Below, in pieces: positions 15,901 to 46,536 of a stretch of DNA of 64,000 bases; position 1 is the first letter of the stretch, and each line of letters starts with the position of its first letter. The translations under genes were made by a program, and so were the position numbers. The notes under the pieces were generated by a model that did not search any database, was not told the DNA's origin, and saw only the letters and a program-made list of their open reading frames with translations. The DNA is taken from NCBI RefSeq assembly GCF_014352935.1, contig NZ_CP060694.1, forward strand, positions 1 to 64,000, written 5' to 3'. Origin of the DNA: Aliarcobacter cryaerophilus. GTDB taxonomy: Bacteria > Campylobacterota > Campylobacteria > Campylobacterales > Arcobacteraceae.

Positions 15901-18900
15901 ATGGCAAATTTAGCACAAATACAATCAATTGCACAGGGGCAATTTTTTGTAAAAGATTCTCTGGGAAATTTAACTGAGTTAAAAGTAGGTGACACTGTAT
16001 CTTTAAATGATATAATAGTTGCTGCAAGCTCAAATACAGATTTGTCAAAAATAGAAATACTTTTTGATACAAATGAACTAATAACACTAAGTCAAGGTGA
16101 ACAACTTTTAGATACTACTTTACTAGCAAGTACTTTTGGAAATGAAGAGTTGGCATTTGATAAACAAGAAGTAGATGAAACACTAAATGCTTGGAATAAT
16201 GCACAAGATGGTGATGAAACAGATATGGAGACAGCAGCAGGTGATGTAACAGAACAAGCAACAAATGCAGGTGATGAAAGAGCTGCTGATGGAGGAGCTT
16301 TAAGAAGTAAGTTTAACTCAAGAGATGGTGCTTCAACAAATGTTGAGAGTGATTTAAGAGATATTTCTTTTGGTGGAGGAAATACTGAAGAACCTCAAGA
16401 ACAAATTCCAACTGAACTTTTAAATCCAGTTGGTGCAACAACTCCTACAACTCCAACTATACCAGTAGATACAAGAGTTCCAGCATCGGTTATTACTCTA
16501 TCAGATCCAACTGTAGATGAAGGAAATCAAATAACTATCGTAGCAACTGTTACAAATCCACCACAAACAGATTTGATAATAACTTTGAGCAATGGACAAA
16601 CTACACAAACTATAACTATATCAGCTGGAGAGACAACAGGTAGTGTAACATTTGATAATCCAAATAGTGAAGATGTATATATCGATAATAGTACAGAAAC
16701 TTACACAATAACAGGTACTACGGGTGGAAACTATGTTAGTTTAGATACAAGCGATAAAGGAACAGTAACAGTAAATGATACAACTACAACTGGAACAAAA
16801 ATAACAGTTTCAGATGTAACAGTTTCTGAGGGTGGAACAGCAAGTGTAGGAGTTTCAGTAAATGCAGATACAAAAGTAGATTTAGTTGTAACACTAGATG
16901 CAAAAGATGCAAATGGAAATAATATACAAGTTACAATTCCAGCAGGAACACCAGCAAATACAGTTATAACTTCTCCAGAGTTTGTAATAAATAATGCAGA
17001 AGATGTATATGTAGATGGTTCAAGCTTTGAAGTAGGAATAGTATCTACAAATAATGATGCAACACAAAAAGATAACTTTGAAGCATTAGATACAAGCGAT
17101 AAAGGAACAGTAACAGTAAATGATACAACTACAACTGGAACAAAAATAACAGTTTCAGATGTAACAGTTTCTGAGGGTGGAACAGCAAGTGTAGGAGTTT
17201 CAGTAAATGCAGATACAAAAGTAGATTTAGTTGTAACACTAGATGCAAAAGATGCAAATGGAAATAATATACAAGTTACAATTCCAGCAGGAACACCAGC
17301 AAATACAGTTATAACTTCTCCAGAGTTTGTAATAAATAATGCAGAAGATGTATATGTAGATGGTTCAAGCTTTGAAGTAGGAATAGTATCTACAAATAAT
17401 GATGCAACACAAAAAGATAACTTTGAAGCATTAGATACAAGCGATAAAGGAACAGTAACAGTAAATGATACAACTACAACTGGAACAAAAATAACAGTTT
17501 CAGATGTAACAGTTTCTGAGGGTGGAACAGCAAGTGTAGGAGTTTCAGTAAATGCAGATACAAAAGTAGATTTAGTTGTAACACTAGATGCAAAAGATGC
17601 AAATGGAAATAATATACAAGTTACAATTCCAGCAGGAACACCAGCAAATACAGTTATAACTTCTCCAGAGTTTGTAATAAATAATGCAGAAGATGTATAT
17701 GTAGATGGTTCAAGCTTTGAAGTAGGAATAGTATCTACAAATAATGATGCAACACAAAAAGATAACTTTGAAGCATTAGATACAAGCGATAAAGGAACAG
17801 TAACAGTAAATGATACAACTACAACTGGAACAAAAATAACAGTTTCAGATGTAACAGTTTCTGAGGGTGGAACAGCAAGTGTAGGAGTTTCAGTAAATGC
17901 AGATACAAAAGTAGATTTAGTTGTAACACTAGATGCAAAAGATGCAAATGGAAATAATATACAAGTTACAATTCCAGCAGGAACACCAGCAAATACAGTT
18001 ATAACTTCTCCAGAGTTTGTAATAAATAATGCAGAAGATGTATATGTAGATGGTTCAAGCTTTGAAGTAGGAATAGTATCTACAAATAATGATGCAACAC
18101 AAAAAGATAACTTTGAAGCATTAGATACAAGCGATAAAGGAACAGTAACAGTAAATGATACAACTACAACTGGAACAAAAATAACAGTTTCAGATGTAAC
18201 AGTTTCTGAGGGTGGAACAGCAAGTGTAGGAGTTTCAGTAAATGCAGATACAAAAGTAGATTTAGTTGTAACACTAGATGCAAAAGATGCAAATGGAAAT
18301 AATATACAAGTTACAATTCCAGCAGGAACACCAGCAAATACAGTTATAACTTCTCCAGAGTTTGTAATAAATAATGCAGAAGATGTATATGTAGATGGTT
18401 CAAGCTTTGAAGTAGGAATAGTATCTACAAATAATGATGCAACACAAAAAGATAACTTTGAAGCATTAGATACAAGCGATAAAGGAACAGTAACAGTAAA
18501 TGATACAACTACAACTGGAACAAAAATAACAGTTTCAGATGTAACAGTTTCTGAGGGTGGAACAGCAAGTGTAGGAGTTTCAGTAAATGCAGATACAAAA
18601 GTAGATTTAGTTGTAACACTAGATGCAAAAGATGCAAATGGAAATAATATACAAGTTACAATTCCAGCAGGAACACCAGCAAATACAGTTATAACTTCTC
18701 CAGAGTTTGTAATAAATAATGCAGAAGATGTATATGTAGATGGTTCAAGCTTTGAAGTAGGAATAGTATCTACAAATAATGATGCAACACAAAAAGATAA
18801 CTTTGAAGCATTAGATACAAGCGATAAAGGAACAGTAACAGTAAATGATACAACTACAACTGGAACAAAAATAACAGTTTCAGATGTAACAGTTTCTGAG

Positions 18901-21900
18901 GGTGGAACAGCAAGTGTAGGAGTTTCAGTAAATGCAGATACAAAAGTAGATTTAGTTGTAACACTAGATGCAAAAGATGCAAATGGAAATAATATACAAG
19001 TTACAATTCCAGCAGGAACACCAGCAAATACAGTTATAACTTCTCCAGAGTTTGTAATAAATAATGCAGAAGATGTATATGTAGATGGTTCAAGCTTTGA
19101 AGTAGGAATAGTATCTACAAATAATGATGCAACACAAAAAGATAACTTTGAAGCATTAGATACAAGCGATAAAGGAACAGTAACAGTAAATGATACAACT
19201 ACAACTGGAACAAAAATAACAGTTTCAGATGTAACAGTTTCTGAGGGTGGAACAGCAAGTGTAGGAGTTTCAGTAAATGCAGATACAAAAGTAGATTTAG
19301 TTGTAACACTAGATGCAAAAGATGCAAATGGAAATAATATACAAGTTACAATTCCAGCAGGAACACCAGCAAATACAGTTATAACTTCTCCAGAGTTTGT
19401 AATAAATAATGCAGAAGATGTATATGTAGATGGTTCAAGCTTTGAAGTAGGAATAGTATCTACAAATAATGATGCAACACAAAAAGATAACTTTGAAGCA
19501 TTAGATACAAGCGATAAAGGAACAGTAACAGTAAATGATACAACTACAACTGGAACAAAAATAACAGTTTCAGATGTAACAGTTTCTGAGGGTGGAACAG
19601 CAAGTGTAGGAGTTTCAGTAAATGCAGATACAAAAGTAGATTTAGTTGTAACACTAGATGCAAAAGATGCAAATGGAAATAATATACAAGTTACAATTCC
19701 AGCAGGAACACCAGCAAATACAGTTATAACTTCTCCAGAGTTTGTAATAAATAATGCAGAAGATGTATATGTAGATGGTTCCTTTGAAGTAGGAATAGTA
19801 TCTACAAATAATGATGCAACACAAAAAGATAACTTTGAAGCATTAGATACAAGCGATAAAGGAACAGTAACAGTAAATGATACAACTACAACTGGAACAA
19901 AAATAACAGTTTCAGATGTAACAGTTTCTGAGGGTGGAACAGCAAGTGTAGGAGTTTCAGTAAATGCAGATACAAAAGTAGATTTAGTTGTAACACTAGA
20001 TGCAAAAGATGCAAATGGAAATAATATACAAGTTACAATTCCAGCAGGAACACCAGCAAATACAGTTATAACTTCTCCAGAGTTTGTAATAAATAATGCA
20101 GAAGATGTATATGTAGATGGTTCAAGCTTTGAAGTAGGAATAGTATCTACAAATAATGATGCAACACAAAAAGATAACTTTGAAGCATTAGATACAAGCG
20201 ATAAAGGAACAGTAACAGTAAATGATACAACTACAACTGGAACAAAAATAACAGTTTCAGATGTAACAGTTTCTGAGGGTGGAACAGCAAGTGTAGGAGT
20301 TTCAGTAAATGCAGATACAAAAGTAGATTTAGTTGTAACACTAGATGCAAAAGATGCAAATGGAAATAATATACAAGTTACAATTCCAGCAGGAACACCA
20401 GCAAATACAGTTATAACTTCTCCAGAGTTTGTAATAAATAATGCAGAAGATGTATATGTAGATGGTTCAAGCTTTGAAGTAGGAATAGTATCTACAAATA
20501 ATGATGCAACACAAAAAGATAACTTTGAAGCATTAGATACAAGCGATAAAGGAACAGTAACAGTAAATGATACAACTACAACTGGAACAAAAATAACAGT
20601 TTCAGATGTAACAGTTTCTGAGGGTGGAACAGCAAGTGTAGGAGTTTCAGTAAATGCAGATACAAAAGTAGATTTAGTTGTAACACTAGATGCAAAAGAT
20701 GCAAATGGAAATAATATACAAGTTACAATTCCAGCAGGAACACCAGCAAATACAGTTATAACTTCTCCAGAGTTTGTAATAAATAATGCAGAAGATGTAT
20801 ATGTAGATGGTTCAAGCTTTGAAGTAGGAATAGTATCTACAAATAATGATGCAACACAAAAAGATAACTTTGAAGCATTAGATACAAGCGATAAAGGAAC
20901 AGTAACAGTAAATGATACAACTACAACTGGAACAAAAATAACAGTTTCAGATGTAACAGTTTCTGAGGGTGGAACAGCAAGTGTAGGAGTTTCAGTAAAT
21001 GCAGATACAAAAGTAGATTTAGTTGTAACACTAGATGCAAAAGATGCAAATGGAAATAATATACAAGTTACAATTCCAGCAGGAACACCAGCAAATACAG
21101 TTATAACTTCTCCAGAGTTTGTAATAAATAATGCAGAAGATGTATATGTAGATGGTTCAAGCTTTGAAGTAGGAATAGTATCTACAAATAATGATGCAAC
21201 ACAAAAAGATAACTTTGAAGCATTAGATACAAGCGATAAAGGAACAGTAACAGTAAATGATACAACTACAACTGGAACAAAAATAACAGTTTCAGATGTA
21301 ACAGTTTCTGAGGGTGGAACAGCAAGTGTAGGAGTTTCAGTAAATGCAGATACAAAAGTAGATTTAGTTGTAACACTAGATGCAAAAGATGCAAATGGAA
21401 ATAATATACAAGTTACAATTCCAGCAGGAACACCAGCAAATACAGTTATAACTTCTCCAGAGTTTGTAATAAATAATGCAGAAGATGTATATGTAGATGG
21501 TTCAAGCTTTGAAGTAGGAATAGTATCTACAAATAATGATGCAACACAAAAAGATAACTTTGAAGCATTAGATACAAGCGATAAAGGAACAGTAACAGTA
21601 AATGATACAACTACTCCAATAGATGTAACAATAACTGCAATAGTATCAACACCAAAAATTATTGATGTAGATACAAAACTAGATGGAACAACGGGAGTTA
21701 AAATAACTGGAATTAATAGTGATGGTGAAGAGGTAGATTTATCTATCATAACAGGAACAAACCATGATGGATTTGGTATAGATGGTAAAAATCTATCAAA
21801 TGGTGATACAAAAGAGTTAGGAGTAGGAGAAAAAATTGTTGTTGAATTTACAAATGGTAAGGATGTAAACTCTCTTGATGTTTCTTTTGCTTGGAGAAAT

Positions 21901-24900
21901 AACCATGAAACAGCAAAACTTACATTTGTAAAAGATGGACAAGTTGTTGGTTATGCTACTGTTGATGGTGATGGTTCTAGTACTACAAAAGCTATTGTTA
22001 AATATTATGATGAAAATAATAATTTAATAAAAACTCAAGAAGCTGAAGGAAGTTCAGATAGAGTTGATAAAGCATTTACTTTTGAGTTACCAGATTCAAA
22101 TGGGGGAATAGTATCATTTGATAAAGTTGAGTTTTCTGCACCAGAAAATAAAGATGATTATTTAATCAACAAAATTGTTTACAAAGAGGTGTTAAATCCT
22201 GAAGTAACTGATGTTGTAACAAAAGGAGGAGATATAACATTTAATATTCAAGTAGATGAAAATTATCCTCCTCAAGGAACAGCAACAGCTACTGTTGAAG
22301 TAAATGGAAAAGAATACTATGTTGAATTAAATTCAACAGGTAGAGGAACTTTGACTATAGATTCTAAAGAACTAGGAGATTTATCAAATATTATTGCAAA
22401 AGTAACAGAAGTAAAAGGTGGTAATTATGAAAAAGTTAATCCTACAGAAGCTAGTTTTAATTTTACACCTACTTTAAAATCTACAGATGATAATATATCT
22501 ACAGATGAAGATGTATCTTATACTCTTAAAGTAACTGATTTTGGTGAAGTTTCTTCAAATACTAAAGAGTTTAAAATTGCTGAATTACCAACAAATGGAA
22601 AGTTATTCTTAAATATTACAGTAGGTGATACAATATTTAATCCAGATGGAACTAAAGCTGTAGCTACTCAAGATTCAAGAGTTGAGATTACAAAAGATCA
22701 AATTGTTACTTTAGGTCAAGTTGGAGCAGGAAAAGTTGTTTTTGAACCAACTGCAAATAGCGATGCTGATGGACAGTTTAAATTCCAAGTAGGTGATGGA
22801 AATGGAAAATTTAGTGAAGAGTACACAACAACTATTGATATAAAAGCAGTTGCAGATGCACCAACTGTAAGTATTGATATAACAAAAATTGGAGCTACTA
22901 TAATAGTTGTTGATGGAGACACGGGAAATTCTAATAATGATGGAAATAATAGTATAGGTGGAATAGTTACTGAAAACTTCTGGCAAGGTTATAACAGTAA
23001 AGAAGATATTATGACTAACTCAACTCATAATGAAAATAGCATAGGATGGCAAAATCCATTTACTGAAAATATTGATAATGTTGATATAAATGGGAATCAA
23101 ACACAATGGATAGATACTCAAGATGGAAATGACAATGTATATATCTCTGGAAATGCTGGTGGTATGAATGCAGGAAATGGAGATGATAAAGTATTTATAA
23201 AAGGAGATGCAACTAATAATATTAATTTAGGTTCAGGAAATGATGAATTACATATTAAAGGAAATTCTTCAACAATTGATGCTGGAGATGGTGATGATAG
23301 AGTAAAAATTGAAGGCAATGCGAATAATGATATTCAACTTGGAGCTGGAAATGATAGCTTAGAAATTAAAGGTAATTCTTCATCTATAAGTGCTGGTGAT
23401 GGAGATGATAAAATAAAAATTGAAGGTAATTCAAATGGTACTATAGAATTAGGTAATGGAAATAACTATTTAGAAATCAAAGGAAATGCTACTTCTATTC
23501 AAGTTGGTATAGATTCTGGGAATGATAGAGTTATAGTTAATGGAAATGCAACAAACAATATCAGTTTAGGAAAAGGAGATGACTATTTAGAGTTAGGTGG
23601 AAAAATTCTAAATTATGTTGATGGCGGAGAAGGAAATAATGATTCAGTTTATTTAAAAGGATATACTCTTACTGAATATCAAGCTTTGATAGCAAATGGT
23701 AACGAATGGAGAGTGAAAAATTTTGAAAATATAAAACTGGGTGATGGAACTATTGTTAAGGGAGATGGTAGTGTATTCGAAACTTCAAAACCAGAAAACA
23801 TTATAAAAGCAGTTGAATATAAAGTAGATATTTCAGCATCTCTAAAAGATACAGATGGAAGTGAAACTTTAAGTGTAGTTATCAAAAATGTACCAGCAGG
23901 GGCAATATTAGAAAGTAATAAATATGAAATATTAAACAATGTAGATGGAAGTTATACAGTAAAAATTCCAGCTGGTATAAAAGATATTTCAGATTCACTT
24001 ACTATGAAAGTTCCAGAAAGTTATAAAGGTGAGATAAATCTTCAAATAGAAGCAAAAGCAACTGAAGTAAATGATAATTTAGATGGGAATAATTTTGCAA
24101 CAGCAACAGCAAATGATACTATTAAAACTGTAACAATAGAGCCATTTAAAGCTGAATTAGATATGGAGTTAAGTAGTGCAACAATTAACACTATAACAAC
24201 TAAAGATGTTAATACAGTTGCAACAGAACAAGCTGGTATTAAGCTAGGAGCGGATGGTAAATATTATGAAACTAAAGTAGTAAGTAAAACTGAAAAGATA
24301 GTGGACAATGAAGCTCTGAAAGATTTAACAGTTAAAATTAATGGTAAGGAATATACTGGTATTACGGTAGGTGCAGATGGTAAATATTATGTTATAGATA
24401 ATACTATTGCAAAAGAGCAAAAAACTATAGAAGTTGAAAGAGAAGTTACTAAAACAGTTTCACTAACAGAGAAACAAGTTGAAAGTTTTATGATAGAGGT
24501 AACTAAAGAGACAAAAGGTATTGTTCTTGGAAAAGAGGTTACTGATTTAGGTAAAAATGAAACTATTGATAAAAATAGTTCTAAAACTTATACACTAGAA
24601 CAACCAACTTCAAATATAGAGATAAAACTTGCAAGTGGTTCAGGAAAAATTGAGTTTGTAGATAAAAATGGGAAAGTTATTGGAAGTTCTACAACTCAGA
24701 CTGGAACTGATTCAAAAGGTTATAGTGTACCAAAAGATGCTGTTGGAGTAAAAATCACAGCTACTAATGCTTTAAAAATGGATGCTATAAAATACCATGT
24801 AGATCCACATGAAGAGACTGTACAAGTTGGTGGTAAAATACTTGATGTTGAGGGTATGCAAAAAGCAGGAATTAGCTGGAATAGTACTGTAAGTGAAAAA

Positions 24901-26271
24901 CAAGTTCAAACTCAGGACATAACTAAATTAGGTTCGACAGTTGGAGATGGTAATATCAAAGGATTTAATCCAGAAGCTAAAGCAAATAGCCAAGTTTTTG
25001 ATTTTGGAAAAGATAAAGCATTCCAAAAAGTAATTATAGAAGTAGATGCAACTATTTCAGGAACTTGGAATTTTAATAAAAATTCTACAAAAGATGTTTT
25101 TGTTGTTAGTGCAAATGGAGTTCCTCAAGGTGCTTATAATTTTTCATCAAATCAAGATTATAGTAGTCAGAGTGATTTCAATAAAAATATAGGAAAAGAC
25201 AATCCAAATGGTTTTGATGTAAAATATGTGAATGGAACATTAAGTCAAAAATATACTTATGAAGTATATTTAGATGAAAATGGTAAAGCTCAAATGAACT
25301 TCACAGTTGCTTCAACAAATACAGATGAATGGGTAACTATTACAGAAGTTAGAGCAACTTACAATGGTTTGAGTGGATTTGTACAAACAAAAACAGAGAT
25401 AGAAAAGGTTACTGAAACAATATTCGTTGGTGTACCAACAAATGTAGAGTATAAAGGAGAGTTGCCTACAAAAGAGATTACAAAATATGAAACTGTACAG
25501 GTAGAGACTACTCCAATATATACAAAACTTACTCAATATGAGTATGAGTTAGATTTAAGTGCTTCAATAACTGTGGGTAGTGGTGAACTATCTACTATTA
25601 CTTTAAAAGATATTCCAAGTGGAGTAACTATAAAAGGATATGAGGCAAATGAAGATGGAAGTTATACTATAAAAATTGGAGAAGATGGAAAATCTCAATT
25701 AACTTTAGTTTCTGATAGCTTATTAAGCGATGCAGAGAAAAAAGCAATTAATGCTACTGTTGAAGCTAATAGTGAAGATGGTTCGCAATCAAGCAAGATA
25801 AATGTAAATATAGAAGGCGATATTTCACATAGTATAAAAGCTTTTGGTACAGAAGATAATGATGATATTTCTATTAATACAGAAAACTCAACTTCTATAG
25901 ATGCTGATGGTGGAGCTGGTTACGATACTATTAAATTAGAAGAAAATAATGATATTGATTTTTCTAATTTAGGAAATTTAATCAAAAATATTGAAGCTAT
26001 TGATTTAACAGATGGTAATCATAAGCTTACAAACATTACATTAGATGATGTTTTAAAAATGAGTGGAGATGATAATAAGATTAAAATTACTGGAGATGAA
26101 TTTGATAGTGTTACATTTAAAAACACTATTGGTCAAGATGGACAAGAACAAAATTGGTCAAAAACAGCTGGAGAAGGTGTAGATAAAGGATTTGATATCT
26201 ATGTAAATAGTGGAGATCCAACACTTCAAGTTAAGGTTGAGCAACCAATTTCGGATGGTATTACAAACTAA
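15901..26271 (+). CDS. Giant LapA/RTX-type adhesin with retention module and 14 near-identical repeats
   Basis: This 3456-residue protein is predicted to be secreted by a type I system and held at the cell surface. Residues 1 to about 100 form an N-terminal retention module (starting MANLAQIQSIAQGQFFVKDS), followed at 111-114 by TAAG, the motif cut by LapG-type periplasmic proteases. One divergent Ig-like/Calx-beta-like unit covers about 185-297. Fourteen 115-residue copies of an Ig-like LapA-type domain cover 298-1906. Further Ig- and cadherin-like regions follow. Residues about 2400-2580 form a Gly/Asp/Asn-rich RTX-like roll, and about 3310-3456 a LapA-like C-terminal secretion region (IEAIDLTDGNHKL, then LDDVLKMSGDDN). 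I see no cysteine in it, and it is acidic, as usual for such adhesins. The ATG has a taggag site. No LapD, LapG or transporter gene is in the window. It has its own terminators on both sides, so it is a single-gene unit. Confidence 0.93.
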   Translation: MANLAQIQSIAQGQFFVKDSLGNLTELKVGDTVSLNDIIVAASSNTDLSKIEILFDTNELITLSQGEQLLDTTLLASTFGNEELAFDKQEVDETLNAWNNAQDGDETDMETAAGDVTEQATNAGDERAADGGALRSKFNSRDGASTNVESDLRDISFGGGNTEEPQEQIPTELLNPVGATTPTTPTIPVDTRVPASVITLSDPTVDEGNQITIVATVTNPPQTDLIITLSNGQTTQTITISAGETTGSVTFDNPNSEDVYIDNSTETYTITGTTGGNYVSLDTSDKGTVTVNDTTTTGTKITVSDVTVSEGGTASVGVSVNADTKVDLVVTLDAKDANGNNIQVTIPAGTPANTVITSPEFVINNAEDVYVDGSSFEVGIVSTNNDATQKDNFEALDTSDKGTVTVNDTTTTGTKITVSDVTVSEGGTASVGVSVNADTKVDLVVTLDAKDANGNNIQVTIPAGTPANTVITSPEFVINNAEDVYVDGSSFEVGIVSTNNDATQKDNFEALDTSDKGTVTVNDTTTTGTKITVSDVTVSEGGTASVGVSVNADTKVDLVVTLDAKDANGNNIQVTIPAGTPANTVITSPEFVINNAEDVYVDGSSFEVGIVSTNNDATQKDNFEALDTSDKGTVTVNDTTTTGTKITVSDVTVSEGGTASVGVSVNADTKVDLVVTLDAKDANGNNIQVTIPAGTPANTVITSPEFVINNAEDVYVDGSSFEVGIVSTNNDATQKDNFEALDTSDKGTVTVNDTTTTGTKITVSDVTVSEGGTASVGVSVNADTKVDLVVTLDAKDANGNNIQVTIPAGTPANTVITSPEFVINNAEDVYVDGSSFEVGIVSTNNDATQKDNFEALDTSDKGTVTVNDTTTTGTKITVSDVTVSEGGTASVGVSVNADTKVDLVVTLDAKDANGNNIQVTIPAGTPANTVITSPEFVINNAEDVYVDGSSFEVGIVSTNNDATQKDNFEALDTSDKGTVTVNDTTTTGTKITVSDVTVSEGGTASVGVSVNADTKVDLVVTLDAKDANGNNIQVTIPAGTPANTVITSPEFVINNAEDVYVDGSSFEVGIVSTNNDATQKDNFEALDTSDKGTVTVNDTTTTGTKITVSDVTVSEGGTASVGVSVNADTKVDLVVTLDAKDANGNNIQVTIPAGTPANTVITSPEFVINNAEDVYVDGSSFEVGIVSTNNDATQKDNFEALDTSDKGTVTVNDTTTTGTKITVSDVTVSEGGTASVGVSVNADTKVDLVVTLDAKDANGNNIQVTIPAGTPANTVITSPEFVINNAEDVYVDGSFEVGIVSTNNDATQKDNFEALDTSDKGTVTVNDTTTTGTKITVSDVTVSEGGTASVGVSVNADTKVDLVVTLDAKDANGNNIQVTIPAGTPANTVITSPEFVINNAEDVYVDGSSFEVGIVSTNNDATQKDNFEALDTSDKGTVTVNDTTTTGTKITVSDVTVSEGGTASVGVSVNADTKVDLVVTLDAKDANGNNIQVTIPAGTPANTVITSPEFVINNAEDVYVDGSSFEVGIVSTNNDATQKDNFEALDTSDKGTVTVNDTTTTGTKITVSDVTVSEGGTASVGVSVNADTKVDLVVTLDAKDANGNNIQVTIPAGTPANTVITSPEFVINNAEDVYVDGSSFEVGIVSTNNDATQKDNFEALDTSDKGTVTVNDTTTTGTKITVSDVTVSEGGTASVGVSVNADTKVDLVVTLDAKDANGNNIQVTIPAGTPANTVITSPEFVINNAEDVYVDGSSFEVGIVSTNNDATQKDNFEALDTSDKGTVTVNDTTTTGTKITVSDVTVSEGGTASVGVSVNADTKVDLVVTLDAKDANGNNIQVTIPAGTPANTVITSPEFVINNAEDVYVDGSSFEVGIVSTNNDATQKDNFEALDTSDKGTVTVNDTTTPIDVTITAIVSTPKIIDVDTKLDGTTGVKITGINSDGEEVDLSIITGTNHDGFGIDGKNLSNGDTKELGVGEKIVVEFTNGKDVNSLDVSFAWRNNHETAKLTFVKDGQVVGYATVDGDGSSTTKAIVKYYDENNNLIKTQEAEGSSDRVDKAFTFELPDSNGGIVSFDKVEFSAPENKDDYLINKIVYKEVLNPEVTDVVTKGGDITFNIQVDENYPPQGTATATVEVNGKEYYVELNSTGRGTLTIDSKELGDLSNIIAKVTEVKGGNYEKVNPTEASFNFTPTLKSTDDNISTDEDVSYTLKVTDFGEVSSNTKEFKIAELPTNGKLFLNITVGDTIFNPDGTKAVATQDSRVEITKDQIVTLGQVGAGKVVFEPTANSDADGQFKFQVGDGNGKFSEEYTTTIDIKAVADAPTVSIDITKIGATIIVVDGDTGNSNNDGNNSIGGIVTENFWQGYNSKEDIMTNSTHNENSIGWQNPFTENIDNVDINGNQTQWIDTQDGNDNVYISGNAGGMNAGNGDDKVFIKGDATNNINLGSGNDELHIKGNSSTIDAGDGDDRVKIEGNANNDIQLGAGNDSLEIKGNSSSISAGDGDDKIKIEGNSNGTIELGNGNNYLEIKGNATSIQVGIDSGNDRVIVNGNATNNISLGKGDDYLELGGKILNYVDGGEGNNDSVYLKGYTLTEYQALIANGNEWRVKNFENIKLGDGTIVKGDGSVFETSKPENIIKAVEYKVDISASLKDTDGSETLSVVIKNVPAGAILESNKYEILNNVDGSYTVKIPAGIKDISDSLTMKVPESYKGEINLQIEAKATEVNDNLDGNNFATATANDTIKTVTIEPFKAELDMELSSATINTITTKDVNTVATEQAGIKLGADGKYYETKVVSKTEKIVDNEALKDLTVKINGKEYTGITVGADGKYYVIDNTIAKEQKTIEVEREVTKTVSLTEKQVESFMIEVTKETKGIVLGKEVTDLGKNETIDKNSSKTYTLEQPTSNIEIKLASGSGKIEFVDKNGKVIGSSTTQTGTDSKGYSVPKDAVGVKITATNALKMDAIKYHVDPHEETVQVGGKILDVEGMQKAGISWNSTVSEKQVQTQDITKLGSTVGDGNIKGFNPEAKANSQVFDFGKDKAFQKVIIEVDATISGTWNFNKNSTKDVFVVSANGVPQGAYNFSSNQDYSSQSDFNKNIGKDNPNGFDVKYVNGTLSQKYTYEVYLDENGKAQMNFTVASTNTDEWVTITEVRATYNGLSGFVQTKTEIEKVTETIFVGVPTNVEYKGELPTKEITKYETVQVETTPIYTKLTQYEYELDLSASITVGSGELSTITLKDIPSGVTIKGYEANEDGSYTIKIGEDGKSQLTLVSDSLLSDAEKKAINATVEANSEDGSQSSKINVNIEGDISHSIKAFGTEDNDDISINTENSTSIDADGGAGYDTIKLEENNDIDFSNLGNLIKNIEAIDLTDGNHKLTNITLDDVLKMSGDDNKIKITGDEFDSVTFKNTIGQDGQEQNWSKTAGEGVDKGFDIYVNSGDPTLQVKVEQPISDGITN
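16792..21618 (+). repeat. Fourteen tandem 345-bp repeats inside the adhesin gene
   Basis: The unit is 345 bp (115 codons), starting at codons GTKITVSDV and ending NDTTTT. It recurs 14 times with no base changes that I could find, other than the two noted here. Copy 9 lacks three bases near 19782 (SSFEVG becomes SFEVG). Copy 14 (21274-21618) ends in proline in place of threonine. The preceding unit (about 16480-16791) is related but clearly diverged. Near-perfect identity, including silent sites, means recent expansion or continuing gene conversion. Copy number is likely to vary between strains and be hard to assemble. Confidence 0.95.
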
Positions 26272-39109: not shown

Positions 39110-40381
39110 ATGCAAAAAGATACAATTGCAATTCATGTAGGTTATGATAAAAAAAGTGGAAATGGTGAGATGGCAATTCCTATTTCTCAAACAACAGCTT
39201 ATGCGTTTAGAGATAGTGAACATGCGGCAAATTTGTTTGCTCTAAAAGAGTTAGGACCTATTTATACAAGATTAAATAATCCTACAAATGATATCTTAGA
39301 ACAAAGATATGCTCAACTTGAAAATGGTGCTGCTGCACTTGTAACTGCAAGTGGTGCAAGTGCAATTTTTTACTCTATTGCAAATATAGCAGAAGCTGGA
39401 GATAATATTTTAATCTCTGATAAACTATATGGTGGAAGTGTAACTCTGTTTCATTTTACATTAAAAAGATTTGGAATTAGTGTAAAAACATTCAAAAGTG
39501 ATGATGCTTCTGATTTAGAGAGTTTGGTTGATGATAAAACAAAAGGTATATTTTTTGAATCATTATCAAACCCTCAAATTGCAATTCCTGCTATTGAAAA
39601 AATTGTTGAAGTAGCAAAAAAATATGGAATTATAACTATTTGTGACAATACAGTTGCAACTGCTACTTTATTTAATCCAATTTCATGGGGAGTTGATGTT
39701 GTAGTTCACTCTACAAGTAAATATACAAGTGGAAACGGTACAGCTTTAGGTGGAGTTATAGTTGAAAGAGATGGTCTAGCAGAGTTTTTCAAAAAAAATA
39801 GTGCAAGATATCCTCAGTTTACAACTCCTGATGCTTCTTATCACGGACTTGTTTATACAGATGTTCCACTTCCAAACTTTTGTTTAAGAGCTAGGCTATC
39901 ACTTTTAAGAGATATTGGAGCAACTCCTGCACCATTTAATTCATGGCTTTTAATTCAAAGTTTAGAAAGTTTAAGTTTAAGAGTTGAAAAACACTCTAAT
40001 AATGCTTTAAAAGTTGCTGAGTTTTTACAATCACATCCAAAAGTAAAAAAAGTTAGTTACCCAGGATTAAAAGGTGATAAGTATTATGATAAAGCACAAA
40101 AATATTTTAAAAATGGACTTGCAAGTGGTCTTATATCTTTTGAGGTAAGTAGTTTTGAAGAGGCTAAAAAAGTTATTGATAGTGCAAAACTGTTTAGCAT
40201 AGTTGTAAACATTGGAGATAGTAAATCTTTAATTGTTCACCCAGCTTCAACTACTCACTCTCAAATGAATGAAGAGGATTTACTAAAAGCTGGAGTTACT
40301 CCTGTAACAGTTAGGCTATCTATTGGGCTTGAAGATAGTGCTGATTTGATTGAAGATTTGAATCAAGCATTAAACAAGTAG
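39110..40381 (+). CDS. O-acetylhomoserine sulfhydrylase-type PLP enzyme (MetY family)
   Basis: The 423-residue protein belongs to the Cys/Met-metabolism PLP-dependent enzymes and matches the O-acetylhomoserine aminocarboxypropyltransferase/O-acetylserine sulfhydrylase group, which makes homocysteine (or cysteine) from sulfide. It has the substrate-region YTRLNNPTNDILEQR segment, the PLP-binding lysine Lys204 in HSTSKYTSGNG, and the C-terminal VNIGDSKSLIVHPASTTHSQM typical of this branch. Length fits. It opens the sulfur-assimilation block and is followed by the Rrf2 regulator after 6 bases. Confidence 0.93.
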   Translation: MQKDTIAIHVGYDKKSGNGEMAIPISQTTAYAFRDSEHAANLFALKELGPIYTRLNNPTNDILEQRYAQLENGAAALVTASGASAIFYSIANIAEAGDNILISDKLYGGSVTLFHFTLKRFGISVKTFKSDDASDLESLVDDKTKGIFFESLSNPQIAIPAIEKIVEVAKKYGIITICDNTVATATLFNPISWGVDVVVHSTSKYTSGNGTALGGVIVERDGLAEFFKKNSARYPQFTTPDASYHGLVYTDVPLPNFCLRARLSLLRDIGATPAPFNSWLLIQSLESLSLRVEKHSNNALKVAEFLQSHPKVKKVSYPGLKGDKYYDKAQKYFKNGLASGLISFEVSSFEEAKKVIDSAKLFSIVVNIGDSKSLIVHPASTTHSQMNEEDLLKAGVTPVTVRLSIGLEDSADLIEDLNQALNK

Positions 40382-40387
40382 TTTGAT

Positions 40388-40801
40388 ATGCCACTGATTT
40401 CAACAAAGGGGGTGTATGGTTTGGCTGCTATTTATGAGTTGAGCAAACATAAAGATGATACTCCCATGCAAATAAAAGATATATCAGCAAATGCTTCAAT
40501 TCCTCAAAACTACTTGGAGCAACTTTTAAGTAAACTTAGACGTGCTGATTTACTAATAAGTACAAGAGGAGCTAGAGGTGGCTATCTTTTGGCAAAAAGT
40601 CCAAAAGATATAAAGATAGTTGATATTTTAATCGCCCTTGAAGATGATATAAAAATTGTTGATTCAAAGGTTGATAACCCGATTTTAAATCTTCTTTTTG
40701 AAGAGTCAAAAGAGAAAACAAAAAGAATTTTTGATTTGACTTTAGCTGATTTAGATAAATATGAGGGAAAATATAATGAGTTTTTACACTATAATATTTA
40801 A
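40388..40801 (+). CDS. Rrf2-family transcriptional regulator
   Basis: This 137-residue winged-helix protein has the Rrf2 signature (ISTKGVYGLAAIYELSKH at the start, IPQNYLEQLLSKLRRADLLISTRGARGGYLLAK in the recognition and wing region). It lacks the three cysteines that bind an iron-sulfur cluster in IscR and NsrR, so it resembles CymR-type cysteine-metabolism regulators. The setting between metY and cysK supports control of sulfur genes. The likely operators are the repeated AGTTGATTAANTTA sites upstream of metY. Confidence 0.9.
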   Translation: MPLISTKGVYGLAAIYELSKHKDDTPMQIKDISANASIPQNYLEQLLSKLRRADLLISTRGARGGYLLAKSPKDIKIVDILIALEDDIKIVDSKVDNPILNLLFEESKEKTKRIFDLTLADLDKYEGKYNEFLHYNI

Positions 40802-40885
40802 GCAAGGCTTTGTTCTAAAAGCAATTTAGGTCGTTCTCATAGAGAATTTAATAGTTTAATATAATAATTTTGAAAGGTAAATAGT

Positions 40886-41818
40886 ATGAAATATGCAAAT
40901 AATGTAACAGAATTAGTAGGAAATACTCCATTAGTAAAACTACAAGATGCAAGTAATGTAAGTGGAGCTACAGTTTTAGGTAAATGTGAATTTATGAATC
41001 CAAGCTCAAGTGTAAAAGATAGAATTGGAACAAATATGATAAAAGTTGCTCTTAAAGAGGGTCTTATAAATAAAGAATCAACTTTAATAGAGCCAACAAG
41101 TGGAAACACTGGAATTGCACTTGCAAGCGTTAGTGCAGCTTTAGGATTAAAACTTGTACTTGTAATGCCAGCATCTATGAGTATTGAAAGAAGAAGACTT
41201 CTTCAAGCTTTAGGTGCAAAATTAGTTCTTACTCCTGCTGAAAAAGGGATGAAAGGTGCTATTGAAAAAGCTAATGAGATAAAAGATGAAACTCCAAATT
41301 CAATTATCTTACAACAGTTTCAAAATGCTTCGAACCCAGCAATACATAGAGAGACAACAGCACAAGAGATTTTAAAAGATACAGATGGAAAAATTGATAT
41401 TTTTATAGCTGGTGTTGGAACAGGTGGAACTCTAACAGGTGTTGGTGAAGTTTTAAAAGCGCATAACCCAAATATAAAAATAATTGCAGTTGAGCCAGAA
41501 GCATCTCCTGTATTAAGTGGAGGTAACCCAGGACCACATAAAATTCAAGGAATTGGAGCTGGATTTGTACCTGATGTTTTAAATACAAAAATTTATGATG
41601 AGGTAATAAAAATAGCAAATGATGATGCAATTGAAAGTTCAAGAGAGTTAGCAAGAACAGAAGGACTTTTAGTAGGAGTATCTTCAGGTTCAAATGCACT
41701 TGCTGCTAAAATAGTTGCTTCAAGACCAGAAAACAAAGGTAAAACAATAGTAACAATTCTTTGTGATACAGGTGAGAGATATTTAAGCTCTGGTTTATAT
41801 GACTATATAGAAGAATAA
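40886..41818 (+). CDS. cysK: Cysteine synthase A (O-acetylserine sulfhydrylase)
   Basis: CysK joins sulfide to O-acetylserine to make cysteine, using PLP. The 310-residue protein has the PLP lysine at 44 in [11 protein letters not shown], the substrate loop [11 protein letters not shown], the phosphate-binding [13 protein letters not shown] and the C-terminal [14 protein letters not shown]. Length and motifs match CysK rather than CysM. It lies 84 bases after the Rrf2 gene and 31 bases before the DUF2061 gene. Confidence 0.95.
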
Positions 41819-41849: not shown

Positions 41850-42080
41850 ATGCACGAAAAACCATATAGGTCAGTTGTTAAAACAATATCTTGGCGAACA
41901 GTTGGAACATTAGATACTATAATAGTATCTTACTTTGTAACTGGAAATTTAGTTATGGCAGCTTCAATTGGATCAATTGAAGTTATTACAAAAATGATTT
42001 TATACTATTTTCATGAAAGAGCTTGGAATAGATTAAAATTTGGAACTGTAAAACAAGTAGAAAACGATTATCAAATTTAA
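41850..42080 (+). CDS. DUF2061 membrane protein
   Basis: The 76-residue protein matches DUF2061: SVVKTISWRTVGTLDTIIVSYFVTGN, then a second hydrophobic stretch, then YYFHERAWNRLKFG. It probably has two membrane helices. Its function is unknown, but the family recurs beside sulfate-activation genes. It sits 31 bases after cysK and 8 bases before cysH, within the same operon. Confidence 0.88.
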   Translation: MHEKPYRSVVKTISWRTVGTLDTIIVSYFVTGNLVMAASIGSIEVITKMILYYFHERAWNRLKFGTVKQVENDYQI

Positions 42081-42088
42081 GGTATTTT

Positions 42089-42790
42089 ATGAGTATAGAA
42101 ATAGTAAAAAATATTGAAGAAAAAATTTTATCTTTAAATACAACTGATTTAATCAAATATATATTAGGAAATTACAAAAATGTAGCATTAAGTTCTAGTC
42201 TAGGTGCTGAAGATCAAGTTTTAACAGATATGATATTTAAAGTAAATAAAAATAGTAGAGTATTTACTCTTGATACTGGAAGATTACATAGCGAAACTTA
42301 CAGAGTTTTGGATGCAACAAATTTAAAATATGGTGTAAAAATAGAAGTTTTTTTCCCAAAATTTGAAGATGTTGAAAACTTATATAAAACTCAAGGTGTA
42401 AATGGTCACTTTGAAAGTATTGATAAGAGAAAAAATTGCTGTAATATTAGAAAAATAGAGCCTTTAAAAAGAGCTCTTAAGAGTGTTGATATCTGGATTA
42501 CAGGACTTAGAGCATCTCAAAGTATTACAAGAGAAGCTATGCCAATAGTTGAGTGGGATGAAAATTTTAAAGTTGTAAAACTAAATCCACTTATAAACTG
42601 GAGCGAAGATGATGTTTGGAATTATATAAAAGAGAATAAAGTTCCATACAATAAACTACACGATAATGGCTTTCCAAGTATTGGTTGTGAACCTTGTACA
42701 AGAGCTATTAAAGATGGTGAGGATATAAGAGCTGGAAGATGGTGGTGGGAGAATCCAGAGCATAAAGAGTGCGGGCTTCATAAGAAGTGA
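42089..42790 (+). CDS. cysH: Adenylylsulfate (APS) reductase, CysH family
   Basis: The enzyme reduces activated sulfate to sulfite in assimilation. The 233-residue protein carries the two cysteine pairs of the iron-sulfur type (CC at 117-118 and CxxC at 200-203) and the catalytic Cys228 in KECGLH. This cysteine set is known to mark enzymes that can use APS directly, unlike the PAPS-only enterobacterial form. The absence of an APS kinase (cysC) in the neighbourhood and the short, unfused CysN agree with that reading. The gene begins 8 bases after DUF2061. Confidence 0.92.
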   Translation: MSIEIVKNIEEKILSLNTTDLIKYILGNYKNVALSSSLGAEDQVLTDMIFKVNKNSRVFTLDTGRLHSETYRVLDATNLKYGVKIEVFFPKFEDVENLYKTQGVNGHFESIDKRKNCCNIRKIEPLKRALKSVDIWITGLRASQSITREAMPIVEWDENFKVVKLNPLINWSEDDVWNYIKENKVPYNKLHDNGFPSIGCEPCTRAIKDGEDIRAGRWWWENPEHKECGLHKK

Positions 42791-43138: not shown

Positions 43139-44050
43139 ATGTTAGATACAAAACAACTAACACATTTAAAACAACTAGAAGCTGAATCAATTCATATAAT
43201 TAGAGAAGTTGTTGCAGAGTTTGATAACCCTGTTATGATGTACTCTGTTGGAAAAGACTCGGCAGTTATGTTACATTTAGCACTAAAGGCATTTGCTCCT
43301 GCAAAATTACCATTTCCACTTTTACATGTGGATACTTTATGGAAATTTAAAGAGATGATTGCTTTTAGAGATAAAAGAGCAAAAGAAGAAGGATTTGAAC
43401 TTTTAGTGCATACAAATCCAGATGGAATTGCGCAAGGAATTGGACCTTTTACTCACGGAAGTGCAGTGCACACAGATATTATGAAAACTCAAGGTTTAAA
43501 ACAAGCCTTAAATAAATATAAGTTTGATGCTGTTTTTGGAGGAGCTAGAAGGGATGAAGAAAAATCTCGTGCAAAAGAGAGAATCTACTCTTTTAGAGAT
43601 AAAAATCACAGATGGGATCCAAAAAACCAAAGACCAGAACTTTGGAATATCTACAATGCAAGAGTTCACAAAGATGAGAGCATTAGAGTTTTCCCACTTT
43701 CAAACTGGACAGAACTTGATATTTGGCAATATATTTATTTAGAGCAAATTCCAATAGTTCCACTATATTTTGCGGCTAAAAGACCAGTTGTTGAAAAAGA
43801 TGGTGTAAAAATCATGGTTGATGATGAAAGAATGCCAATAGGTCCAGAAGATGTTATAAAAGAAGAGATGGTTAGATTCAGAACTTTAGGATGTTATCCT
43901 TTAACAGGTGCTGTAAATTCAACTGCAACAACTCTTGAAGAGATAATAAAAGAGATGCTTCTAAGCCGTACAAGTGAGAGACAAGGAAGAGTTATAGACA
44001 ATGATAGTGCTGGGTCTATGGAGAAGAAAAAAATAGAAGGGTATTTTTAA
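43139..44050 (+). CDS. cysD: Sulfate adenylyltransferase subunit 2
   Basis: CysD is the catalytic subunit that makes APS from sulfate and ATP, working with the GTPase CysN. The 303-residue protein has the PP-loop motif [14 protein letters not shown] near residues 35-48. It also has the conserved [26 protein letters not shown] and the C-terminal [15 protein letters not shown] with FDN/IDND and KKKIEGYF ending. Length is typical. A gaggag site precedes the ATG, and cysN starts 1 base after its stop. Confidence 0.97.
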
Positions 44051-44051
44051 A

Positions 44052-45446
44052 ATGGAAAAAATTGATGATATAAAAGCTTATTTAAAAGAGCATGAGAATA
44101 AACAACTTCTTAGATTTATAACTTGTGGAAATGTTGATGATGGAAAATCTACTTTAATTGGAAGATTACTTCATGATAGTAAAGGGATTTTTGAAGATCA
44201 GCTTGAAAATATAAAAAAAGATAGTAAAAAAAATAATAGTACAGACAATGAGTTTGATTTATCACTTTTAGTTGATGGTTTACAAAGTGAGAGAGAGCAA
44301 GGTATCACTATAGATGTTGCATATAGATACTTTACAACTCCAAAAAGAAAGTTTATTATTGCTGATACTCCAGGTCATGAACAATATACAAGAAATATGG
44401 CAACGGGGGCTAGTACGGCAAACTTAGCAATTATTTTAATAGATGCTAGATATGGAGTTCAAACTCAAACGAAAAGACACTCTTTTATAAATAAGTTATT
44501 AGGAATTAAACATATAGTTGTAGCTGTTAATAAAATGGACTTAATGGATTTTAGAGAAGATGTTTTTAATAAAATTAAAGAGGATTATCTTAAATTTGCA
44601 AAAGAGTTAGGTCTTTCTAGTAATATAACTTTAATTCCATTATCTGCTTTAAATGGAGATAATGTAGTTGAAAGAAGCTCGAAATCTCCTTGGTATAATG
44701 GTGAAACATTAATAGAGCATTTAGAAAATGTACAAATTGATAGTGATAGAGATTTAACACACTTTAGATTTCCAGTTCAATATGTAAATAGAGCTAATCT
44801 TGATTTTAGAGGTTTTTGTGGAACAGTTGCAAGTGGAGTTATAAAAGTTGGTGATGAAATTACAGTTTTACCTTCTAAAAAAAGCTCAAAAGTAAAAGAG
44901 ATTGTAACTTATGATGGGAATTTGCCTTATGCATATGCACAACAAGCAATTACTTTAACTTTAGAAGATGAGATAGATATTAGTCGTGGAGATGTGATTG
45001 TAAAAAGTGATGAACAAGCTGATGAGGCAAACAATTTTGATGTAGATATTGTATGGTTAAGTGAAGATCCACTAATAAAAGGAAAACAATATTTTATTAA
45101 AAGAGCAACAACTACAACAGTTGGAACTATTAGTCAATTTTATTATAAAACAGATGTAAACACTCTTGAAAGAAGTGCAACAAATACTTTAAATTTAAAT
45201 GAGATTGCAAGAGCAAAACTTGATTTAGAGCAAATAATTGCATACGATACTTATGATAAAATAAAAACAATGGGAAGCTTTATAATAATAGATAGAGTTA
45301 CAAACAACACTGTTGGTGCTGGTATGATTAGATCAAAATCAAGTGATCAAAGCAAAAAAGATACCTCTTATAGTGCTTTTGAGATTGAGTTTAATGCTCT
45401 TGTGCGAAAACATTTTCCACACTGGGAGTGCAAAGAGATTTTTTAA
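44052..45446 (+). CDS. cysN: Sulfate adenylyltransferase subunit 1 (GTPase)
   Basis: CysN is the regulatory GTPase that drives APS synthesis by CysD. The 464-residue protein is EF-Tu-like: G1 GNVDDGKST at 26-34, G3 DTPGHEQY, G4 NKMD, then the beta-barrel domains. It carries no fused APS kinase domain, so only APS would be formed, in line with an APS-type CysH. It follows cysD directly, and the sulfite-reductase-like gene begins 10 bases after its stop. Confidence 0.96.
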   Translation: MEKIDDIKAYLKEHENKQLLRFITCGNVDDGKSTLIGRLLHDSKGIFEDQLENIKKDSKKNNSTDNEFDLSLLVDGLQSEREQGITIDVAYRYFTTPKRKFIIADTPGHEQYTRNMATGASTANLAIILIDARYGVQTQTKRHSFINKLLGIKHIVVAVNKMDLMDFREDVFNKIKEDYLKFAKELGLSSNITLIPLSALNGDNVVERSSKSPWYNGETLIEHLENVQIDSDRDLTHFRFPVQYVNRANLDFRGFCGTVASGVIKVGDEITVLPSKKSSKVKEIVTYDGNLPYAYAQQAITLTLEDEIDISRGDVIVKSDEQADEANNFDVDIVWLSEDPLIKGKQYFIKRATTTTVGTISQFYYKTDVNTLERSATNTLNLNEIARAKLDLEQIIAYDTYDKIKTMGSFIIIDRVTNNTVGAGMIRSKSSDQSKKDTSYSAFEIEFNALVRKHFPHWECKEIF

Positions 45447-45456
45447 TGGAGTTAAA

Positions 45457-46536
45457 ATGTCAATAAATATAAATATTGAAAAATTAAAAAAAGATATAAC
45501 TAGTGAAGATATTTTGGCTTCACTATTTTATTATGCTGTTTTTGGAGAAAAAATATCAGAAAATGATTTAGAGAGATTTAAGTGGCATGGAATTTATGCT
45601 AAAGATGAAAAACAAACAAGTTTTTCTCTTAAAATTCCTCTAAATTTAGGAGAGCTAAATTTAGAACAGCTAGAGTCAATATTAGATATTTTAGAGACTT
45701 TTTCACTATTAAAAATATCTTTTAAAGATGGTCAAAAAATAGAGTTTGATAGTTTAAATTTAAGAGATATTCCAGAGATTTTTAATATATTAAATAAAGT
45801 AGGGCTATCAAGTTTTTTTGAGTCAAGTCATAGTATAAAAAAAGTTTTGACATGCCCTGTAAATGGACTAGATACTACACAAATTTTTGATGTAGAAGAT
45901 TTAGCAAAAAAATTAAATGAGAGTTTTGTTGAAAATAAAAATTTCTTTAATCTTCCAAATAAATTGCAATTTGCGATAAGTGGTTATCGTGAAGGTTGTG
46001 ATGCTGGATTTACACCAGATGTTAGCTTTAATGCTTTTAAAAATAACAAAGATAAAATAGTTTTTGATTTAAAAATTTTGGATAAGGTTGTAGCTCAAAT
46101 AGGTAGTTCTCAGATAATAAAAACAGCAAGAGTAATAGCTGCTGTATATAGAGATTTTGGAAATAGAGAAAAAAATAGTAATTTTAAAGAGTTTATAAAA
46201 GAGTTTACACTTGAGAGTTTTTGTGATATTTTAAGTTCAAATTTGGATATTAAAATAGATAATAATCAAGAGATAAAAATATTAAAAGAACCAAAAAAAC
46301 CTAGAATGGGAATAAATAAAAGTTCAAAAGATGGTTACTCTTTTATAGGACTAAAAAGCATAAAAAAAGAGTTCACTAAAGATGATTTAAAAAATATAAT
46401 AGAAAATATGAAAAAATATAGTACAACAAAGTTAAAAATCACTCATAAATCAAATATTATAATCTTAGATGTACCAACTAAAAATAGTGATAATCTAGTA
46501 AACTCTCTTAAAAATAGCGGACTAGTTTTAGAATAA
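45457..46536 (+). CDS. Nitrite/sulfite reductase-like protein with missing iron-sulfur cysteines
   Basis: The 359-residue protein has the two ferredoxin-like half domains and the central fold of the siroheme sulfite/nitrite reductase family (regions FSLKIPLNLGELNLEQLESI near 56-75 and FISL/FIGLKSIKKEFTKDD late). It lies in the right place for CysI, after cysN. However, it contains only three cysteines (133, 181 and 256). The usual two CxxxxxC / CxxxC ligand pairs for the 4Fe-4S cluster and siroheme are not present: the segments TCPVNGLD and SGYREGCDAGF look like altered versions. It is also shorter than normal sulfite reductases (about 500-570). I chose the ATG at 45457 because a tggagtt site precedes it; an upstream start at 45343 would lie inside cysN. 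Confidence 0.7.
   Translation: MSININIEKLKKDITSEDILASLFYYAVFGEKISENDLERFKWHGIYAKDEKQTSFSLKIPLNLGELNLEQLESILDILETFSLLKISFKDGQKIEFDSLNLRDIPEIFNILNKVGLSSFFESSHSIKKVLTCPVNGLDTTQIFDVEDLAKKLNESFVENKNFFNLPNKLQFAISGYREGCDAGFTPDVSFNAFKNNKDKIVFDLKILDKVVAQIGSSQIIKTARVIAAVYRDFGNREKNSNFKEFIKEFTLESFCDILSSNLDIKIDNNQEIKILKEPKKPRMGINKSSKDGYSFIGLKSIKKEFTKDDLKNIIENMKKYSTTKLKITHKSNIIILDVPTKNSDNLVNSLKNSGLVLE

Follow-up and report, generated by a model that had tools for sequence, protein, structure and literature searches.

The sulfite and nitrite reductases of the NirA/SirA type, represented by M. tuberculosis NirA (1zj8) and spinach NiR (2akj), share with the gene product analysed here, opS, an architecture of a first ferredoxin-like half-domain (P1), a first NIR_SIR domain (S1), and a second half-domain (P2). 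Unlike these enzymes, opS is devoid of the second NIR_SIR domain (S2) and of the 4Fe-4S cysteines, its siroheme-binding Arg/Lys residues are replaced, and a loop of S1 is deleted. The portion of opS that is retained is also predicted to have the fold of CysI, represented by E. coli SiRHP (1aop; Z 22.5), and occupies the same position in the pathway, although the catalytic domain and its ligands are absent and sequence similarity is weak. Closer by descent are the full-length sulfite reductases (Sir) encoded in the same slot after cysN in related genomes (e.g., L080 and G089, 518 aa), which form the sister group of the truncated clade and keep their full length and all catalytic residues, whereas opS is truncated. 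More distantly, the opS model matches DsrB chains (Z 13.8-15.1). The Dsr chains each retain S domains and cofactors, such that the likeness to DsrAB lies in the idea of a non-catalytic chain within the same fold family, the opS operon being assimilatory.

The genome of A. butzleri encodes CysDN, an APS-type CysH, CysI, CysJ, and CysG, and the organism grows without cysteine or methionine, the only sulfite reductase entry in the genome paper being “CysI and CysJ” (PMC2147049). This gene set, together with the growth phenotype, makes it likely that the sulfate assimilation pathway is complete in the genus. In the open-access literature, we found no prior account from Arcobacteraceae of an assimilatory sulfite reductase that is truncated or free of cofactors, which does not by itself prove priority.

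A truncated sulfite reductase homologue behind cysN

The window, a 64,000-nucleotide stretch of Aliarcobacter cryaerophilus DNA (contig NZ_CP060694.1), carries a forward-strand sulfur operon. It opens with a PLP enzyme of Cys/Met metabolism resembling O-acetylhomoserine sulfhydrylase (39110..40381), the first gene of a conserved block, followed by an Rrf2-family regulator (40388..40801) adjoining cysK, the cysteine synthase gene (40886..41818), an open reading frame for a 76-aa DUF2061-type membrane protein (41850..42080; family taken from the homologue L144:1564-1779, PF09834), cysH of the APS reductase type (42089..42790; TIGR02055 above cut-off), and the sulfate adenylyltransferase genes cysD (43139..44050) and cysN, the latter encoding the GTPase subunit directly upstream of opS (44052..45446). 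The order of regulator and cysK (40388-41818) is the same across Arcobacteraceae, a pairing that we take to recall the CymR-CysK regulatory pair of Firmicutes. A DUF2061-type gene also lies between cysK and cysH in the operons of G017, G033, G068, and G111-G114.

Within the family, cysD and cysN fall into separate identity classes (L046, L041, and L148 versus L045 and L047), with cysN identity to the window of about 56% versus 71-95%, despite conserved flanks, which suggests that cysDN was replaced in some lineages. Following the Sir slot, most Arcobacteraceae carry a class-V aminotransferase of about 433 aa (L046:11498-12799 and its equivalents), regardless of whether that slot contains a full-length gene, a truncated one, or none; the window is an exception, with an MFS transporter on the opposite strand at this position. 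Elsewhere in the window, a 3456-aa open frame (15901-26271) encloses an opposite-strand frame of 1672 aa (16731-21749), the former probably encoding a large repetitive protein.

The opS gene itself (45457..46536, forward strand), identified through profile matches, orthologues, and an AlphaFold model, encodes 359 aa from an ATG located 10 nt past the cysN stop and preceded at 5 nt by a ribosome-binding-like GGAG (45448..45451). A GTG start at 45343, giving 397 aa, was rejected, as this extension overlaps cysN out of frame and the orthologues begin at or near 45457. The protein is 94% identical to the copy in A. cryaerophilus gv. crypticus LMG 9065. It exceeds the curated Pfam cut-offs for NIR_SIR (1.5e-14) and NIR_SIR_ferr (3.8e-12) and covers positions 14-375 of the 513 in the NCBIfam ferredoxin-nitrite reductase model; opS therefore corresponds to the N-terminal two thirds of a NirA/CysI-type enzyme. 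Two PF03460 half-domains, P1 (45607..45798) and P2 (46324..46512), flank one PF01077 domain, S1 (45835..46245), and the protein terminates after P2, without the second NIR_SIR domain whose C-x5-C and C-x3-C motifs supply the 4Fe-4S ligands. All four ligand columns fall past the C-terminus in each of the 46 truncated copies aligned. The AlphaFold model, built from 30 orthologues (mean pLDDT 82, pTM 0.80), superposes on residues 23-406 of M. tuberculosis NirA over 352 residues (2.8 Å, Z 35.3, 22% identity), the match stopping before the domain that bears the cluster cysteines; the structure prediction left as a check by a preliminary description of this locus thus yields a predicted P1-S1-P2 fold.

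Loss also extends into the domain that remains. At the five pocket positions where the family has R, R, R, K, and K, opS has K59, G92, K128, K169, and Q171, such that four of the five conserved Arg/Lys are replaced. We take these columns to be the siroheme- and substrate-binding residues of the family, on the basis of what is generally known of the SiRHP and NirA structures. Across 53 full-length Arcobacteraceae sequences, none of the five varies, whereas in the truncated set (n=46) every one of them does, drifting (K/R/V, G/E/R and others, R/K/T, K/S/E, and Q/K/H/T) such that each copy retains between zero and three. Conversely, D130 and R174, invariant in full-length proteins, have become H125 and N168 in 46/46 truncated copies, and outside Malaciobacter all 40 copies present P61 in place of an invariant K and share the deletion of the S1 Gly-Gly-Leu loop of intact enzymes. 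A pocket that drifts while H125 and N168 stay fixed is the pattern expected if catalysis was abandoned and something else was selected, and the fixation is consistent with selection for a changed role. Of the only three cysteines in opS, Cys133 and Cys181 are kept in nearly all orthologues and Cys256 is not conserved; by alignment, the former two map, with H125 and N168, to the S1 loops that hold the pocket residues in intact enzymes.

Judged from these sequences, opS belongs to the NirA/CysI superfamily by fold and descent and, by its defining chemistry, is not a sulfite reductase. The preliminary description had reported a 359-residue sulfite reductase relative with three cysteines inside an APS-type cys operon, and the open reading frame, the Pfam matches, the neighbours cysK, cysH, cysD, and cysN, and the scoring of CysH as an APS reductase all agree with it. 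Its statement that the iron-sulfur cysteines are lacking also stands, with the correction that they are missing along with the entire C-terminal domain rather than replaced within it, and it rightly held that the standard cofactors are not bound in the known way, as read from the absence of S2 and the four replaced pocket residues. Because two or three of the five siroheme residues persist in most copies, the truncated protein may still bind some tetrapyrrole or oxyanion weakly.

Distribution, descent, and selection

Fifty of the 104 Arcobacteraceae genomes carry the truncated form, either as a frame of roughly 359-393 aa or as a fragment at a contig end. The gene closes a conserved block that runs from the PLP enzyme through rrf2, cysK, cysH, cysD, and cysN to the truncated gene, often followed by the aminotransferase. 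In every copy whose flanks were examined it lies directly behind cysN, except for L016 and L113, where the DNA ends before cysN, and its start falls 8-11 nt after the cysN stop or overlaps it. Named carriers include Arcobacter/Aliarcobacter cryaerophilus, vandammei, vitoriensis, and caeni, as well as Poseidonibacter and Malaciobacter halophilus. In 23 genomes, mostly of other genera, the same slot holds a full-length orthologue of 518-540 aa that retains all cluster cysteines and all pocket Arg/Lys residues. In seven further genomes, the slot is empty, with 63-355 nt separating cysN from the aminotransferase: G017, which is of the same genus as the window and 76% complete, and six from two other genera (G033, G068, and G111-G114). 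These empty slots indicate that the truncated protein is dispensable in some lineages. Outside the family, full-length Sir genes follow cysN in G038 and G058, from two other families of the order, which makes a full-length enzyme the likely ancestral content of the slot. Among the matches listed from 349 genomes of the order, truncated copies are confined to Arcobacteraceae, the other strong matches having frames of about 500 aa or longer except for fragments that match part of the query, and a search of viral contigs found no relatives of opS.

In a tree built on the N-terminal region that all copies share (45 rows, unlinked Sir proteins encoded outside the operon as outgroup), every truncated copy except that of G101 falls in one clade (support 98/99), whose sister group consists of full-length operonic copies from a single genus (98/96); a quick tree of 102 rows agrees. 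All truncated copies tested except G101 thus trace, on this sequence tree, to one truncation event. The G101 copy, at 393 aa, clusters with a different set of full-length copies; it has retained the ancestral D and R and stops at the first cluster cysteine. Past its stop, a stretch in frame 2, for which BLAST gave no significant match, resembles by eye an eroded start of S2. Constraining G101 to join the main truncated clade worsens the fit by 13.8 log units (AU p = 0.064), which makes a single clade of all truncated copies unlikely but stops short of disproving it. From its placement, its residues, and the cost of the constraint, truncation probably happened twice, G101 being the independent case.

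Pairwise NG86 counts over 12 species pairs give the truncated gene a dN/dS of 0.05-0.22; the corresponding range for cysN is 0.04-0.12. A frame of about 359-381 aa is kept in the 46 main-clade copies examined over more than 50% divergence, including copies down to 35-40% identity with opS of the window, and neither disrupted frames nor neutral substitution were found among those aligned. It is very improbable that opS is a decaying pseudogene without function: a domain was lost beforehand, the gene evolves faster than cysN in most pairs, G101 is trailed by its apparent remnant, and empty slots exist, but the low dN/dS, the maintained frame, and the residues specific to the clade, foremost H125 and N168 in 46/46 copies, argue against decay. 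The preliminary description had listed decay among its options while doubting it, and the substitution counts contradict that option. With an intact relative in its family, its own catalytic residues lost, and purifying selection acting since then, opS conforms to the general idea of a pseudoenzyme.

The unlinked reductase and the proposed role of opS

The window's genome encodes a full-length Sir of 528 aa at G000:C1:1616724-1618310, far from opS and without sulfur-gene neighbours. This protein contains two NIR_SIR domains and lacks none of the four cluster cysteines or the five basic residues of the pocket. The genome also encodes a uroporphyrinogen methyltransferase of the siroheme pathway that scores above its curated cut-off. 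The pathway is therefore not short of its enzyme. The preliminary description, which suggested a genome search for such a full-length CysI/SirA, had put opS in the place of CysI; this holds as far as opS sits in the exact slot of its relatives' full-length Sir, but no reductase is missing. An unlinked Sir is present in 49/49 adequately complete genomes with the truncated gene versus 7/23 with a full-length slot, being absent from the other 16 (Fisher P 6e-11, uncorrected for shared ancestry). It also accompanies cysN and an empty slot in G017, G033, G068, G111, and G112.

Additional full-length paralogues occur in several genomes (G022, G029, G115, G116, and others of genus g6). They are second unlinked copies of about 71% identity, joined in genus g6 by a distant type of about 27%. 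In several intact Sirs, the positions of cysteines in the first NIR_SIR domain, 138 and 183-187 in P0002 (L038:8722-10311; Met numbering), appear to correspond to three of the four cysteines that bind the cluster in the second domain; of 30 unlinked Sirs, 9 lack Cys138 and 9 lack Cys187. By sequence, these cysteines are possibly the relic of a second cluster site.

We consider it about as probable as not (roughly 0.5) that opS derives from a former Sir of the cys operon and is now a cofactor-free pseudoenzyme that serves sulfate assimilation as a regulatory or scaffold subunit. The truncation, the missing siroheme residues and loop, the conserved adjacency to cysN, the purifying selection, and the intact enzyme in the same genomes are established at the level of sequence. 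The history would begin with a single loss of S2, and with it all four 4Fe-4S ligands, in the ancestor of Aliarcobacter, Poseidonibacter, Malaciobacter, and their relatives, probably after a second, unlinked Sir was already present; in the simplest account, once this second Sir existed, the operonic copy was no longer needed for catalysis. The shortened, cofactor-free protein would be co-translated with CysN and would act through protein contacts, most likely via the face bared by the loss of S2, since removing this domain exposes its former packing surface and suggests a partner or self-association there. As such a subunit it may hold or tune the chain of CysDN, CysH, and sulfite reductase without being a redox enzyme itself, the six-electron reduction of sulfite being carried out, presumably, by the full-length unlinked Sir. 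The narrower proposal, that loss of the cluster domain converted Sir into a cofactor-free subunit dedicated to regulating or scaffolding the CysDN-CysH machinery, is more tentative. Among the options of the preliminary description, a repurposed subunit or regulator appears the best supported.

A different partner could be the unlinked Sir itself, with opS as its obligate or enhancing non-catalytic subunit in a heteromeric sulfite reductase. Heteromers are known from this fold family, as in DsrAB, and the enzyme accompanies the truncated gene in all 49 genomes; the same co-occurrence is nevertheless expected if a spare enzyme merely permitted truncation, and the seven genomes in which an unlinked Sir stands beside an intact operonic one speak against the pairing. 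Since unlinked Sir also exists without the truncated protein in the five empty-slot genomes named above, an obligatory role is unlikely, so that the partnership raised in the preliminary description remains conceivable only as a non-obligatory one, and we regard the heteromer as a whole as unlikely. Somewhat less probable still is that opS uses a residual S1 pocket as a siroheme carrier, an insertion chaperone, or a sulfite/APS sensor. The S1 fold is retained and Cys133, Cys181, H125, and N168 are conserved in what the alignment places as pocket-bearing loops, but the Gly-Gly-Leu loop is gone, and the basic residues for siroheme differ freely from copy to copy. As the break falls between domains, opS might also be half of a split sulfite reductase with S2 encoded elsewhere; however, the genome has three PF01077 matches, one in opS and two in the unlinked Sir, and no stand-alone S2-type domain was found in it at the sensitivity of the Pfam model, which leaves this the least credible of all the readings. 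The preferred reading, a regulatory or scaffold subunit, has no counterpart in any assimilatory sulfate pathway to our knowledge.

On Pfam matches alone, opS would be labelled a nitrite/sulfite reductase, and sulfite reduction would be assigned to the wrong Aliarcobacter gene. The locus offers a traceable case of an enzyme becoming a conserved non-enzyme in primary metabolism, within one operon of one bacterial family, as Arcobacteraceae still preserve the intact ancestral type, the truncated form, a second truncation, probably independent, that has left an apparent remnant, and genomes in which the slot is empty. If opS does act in sulfate assimilation, the pathway would have a regulatory or scaffold component that has so far not been looked for.
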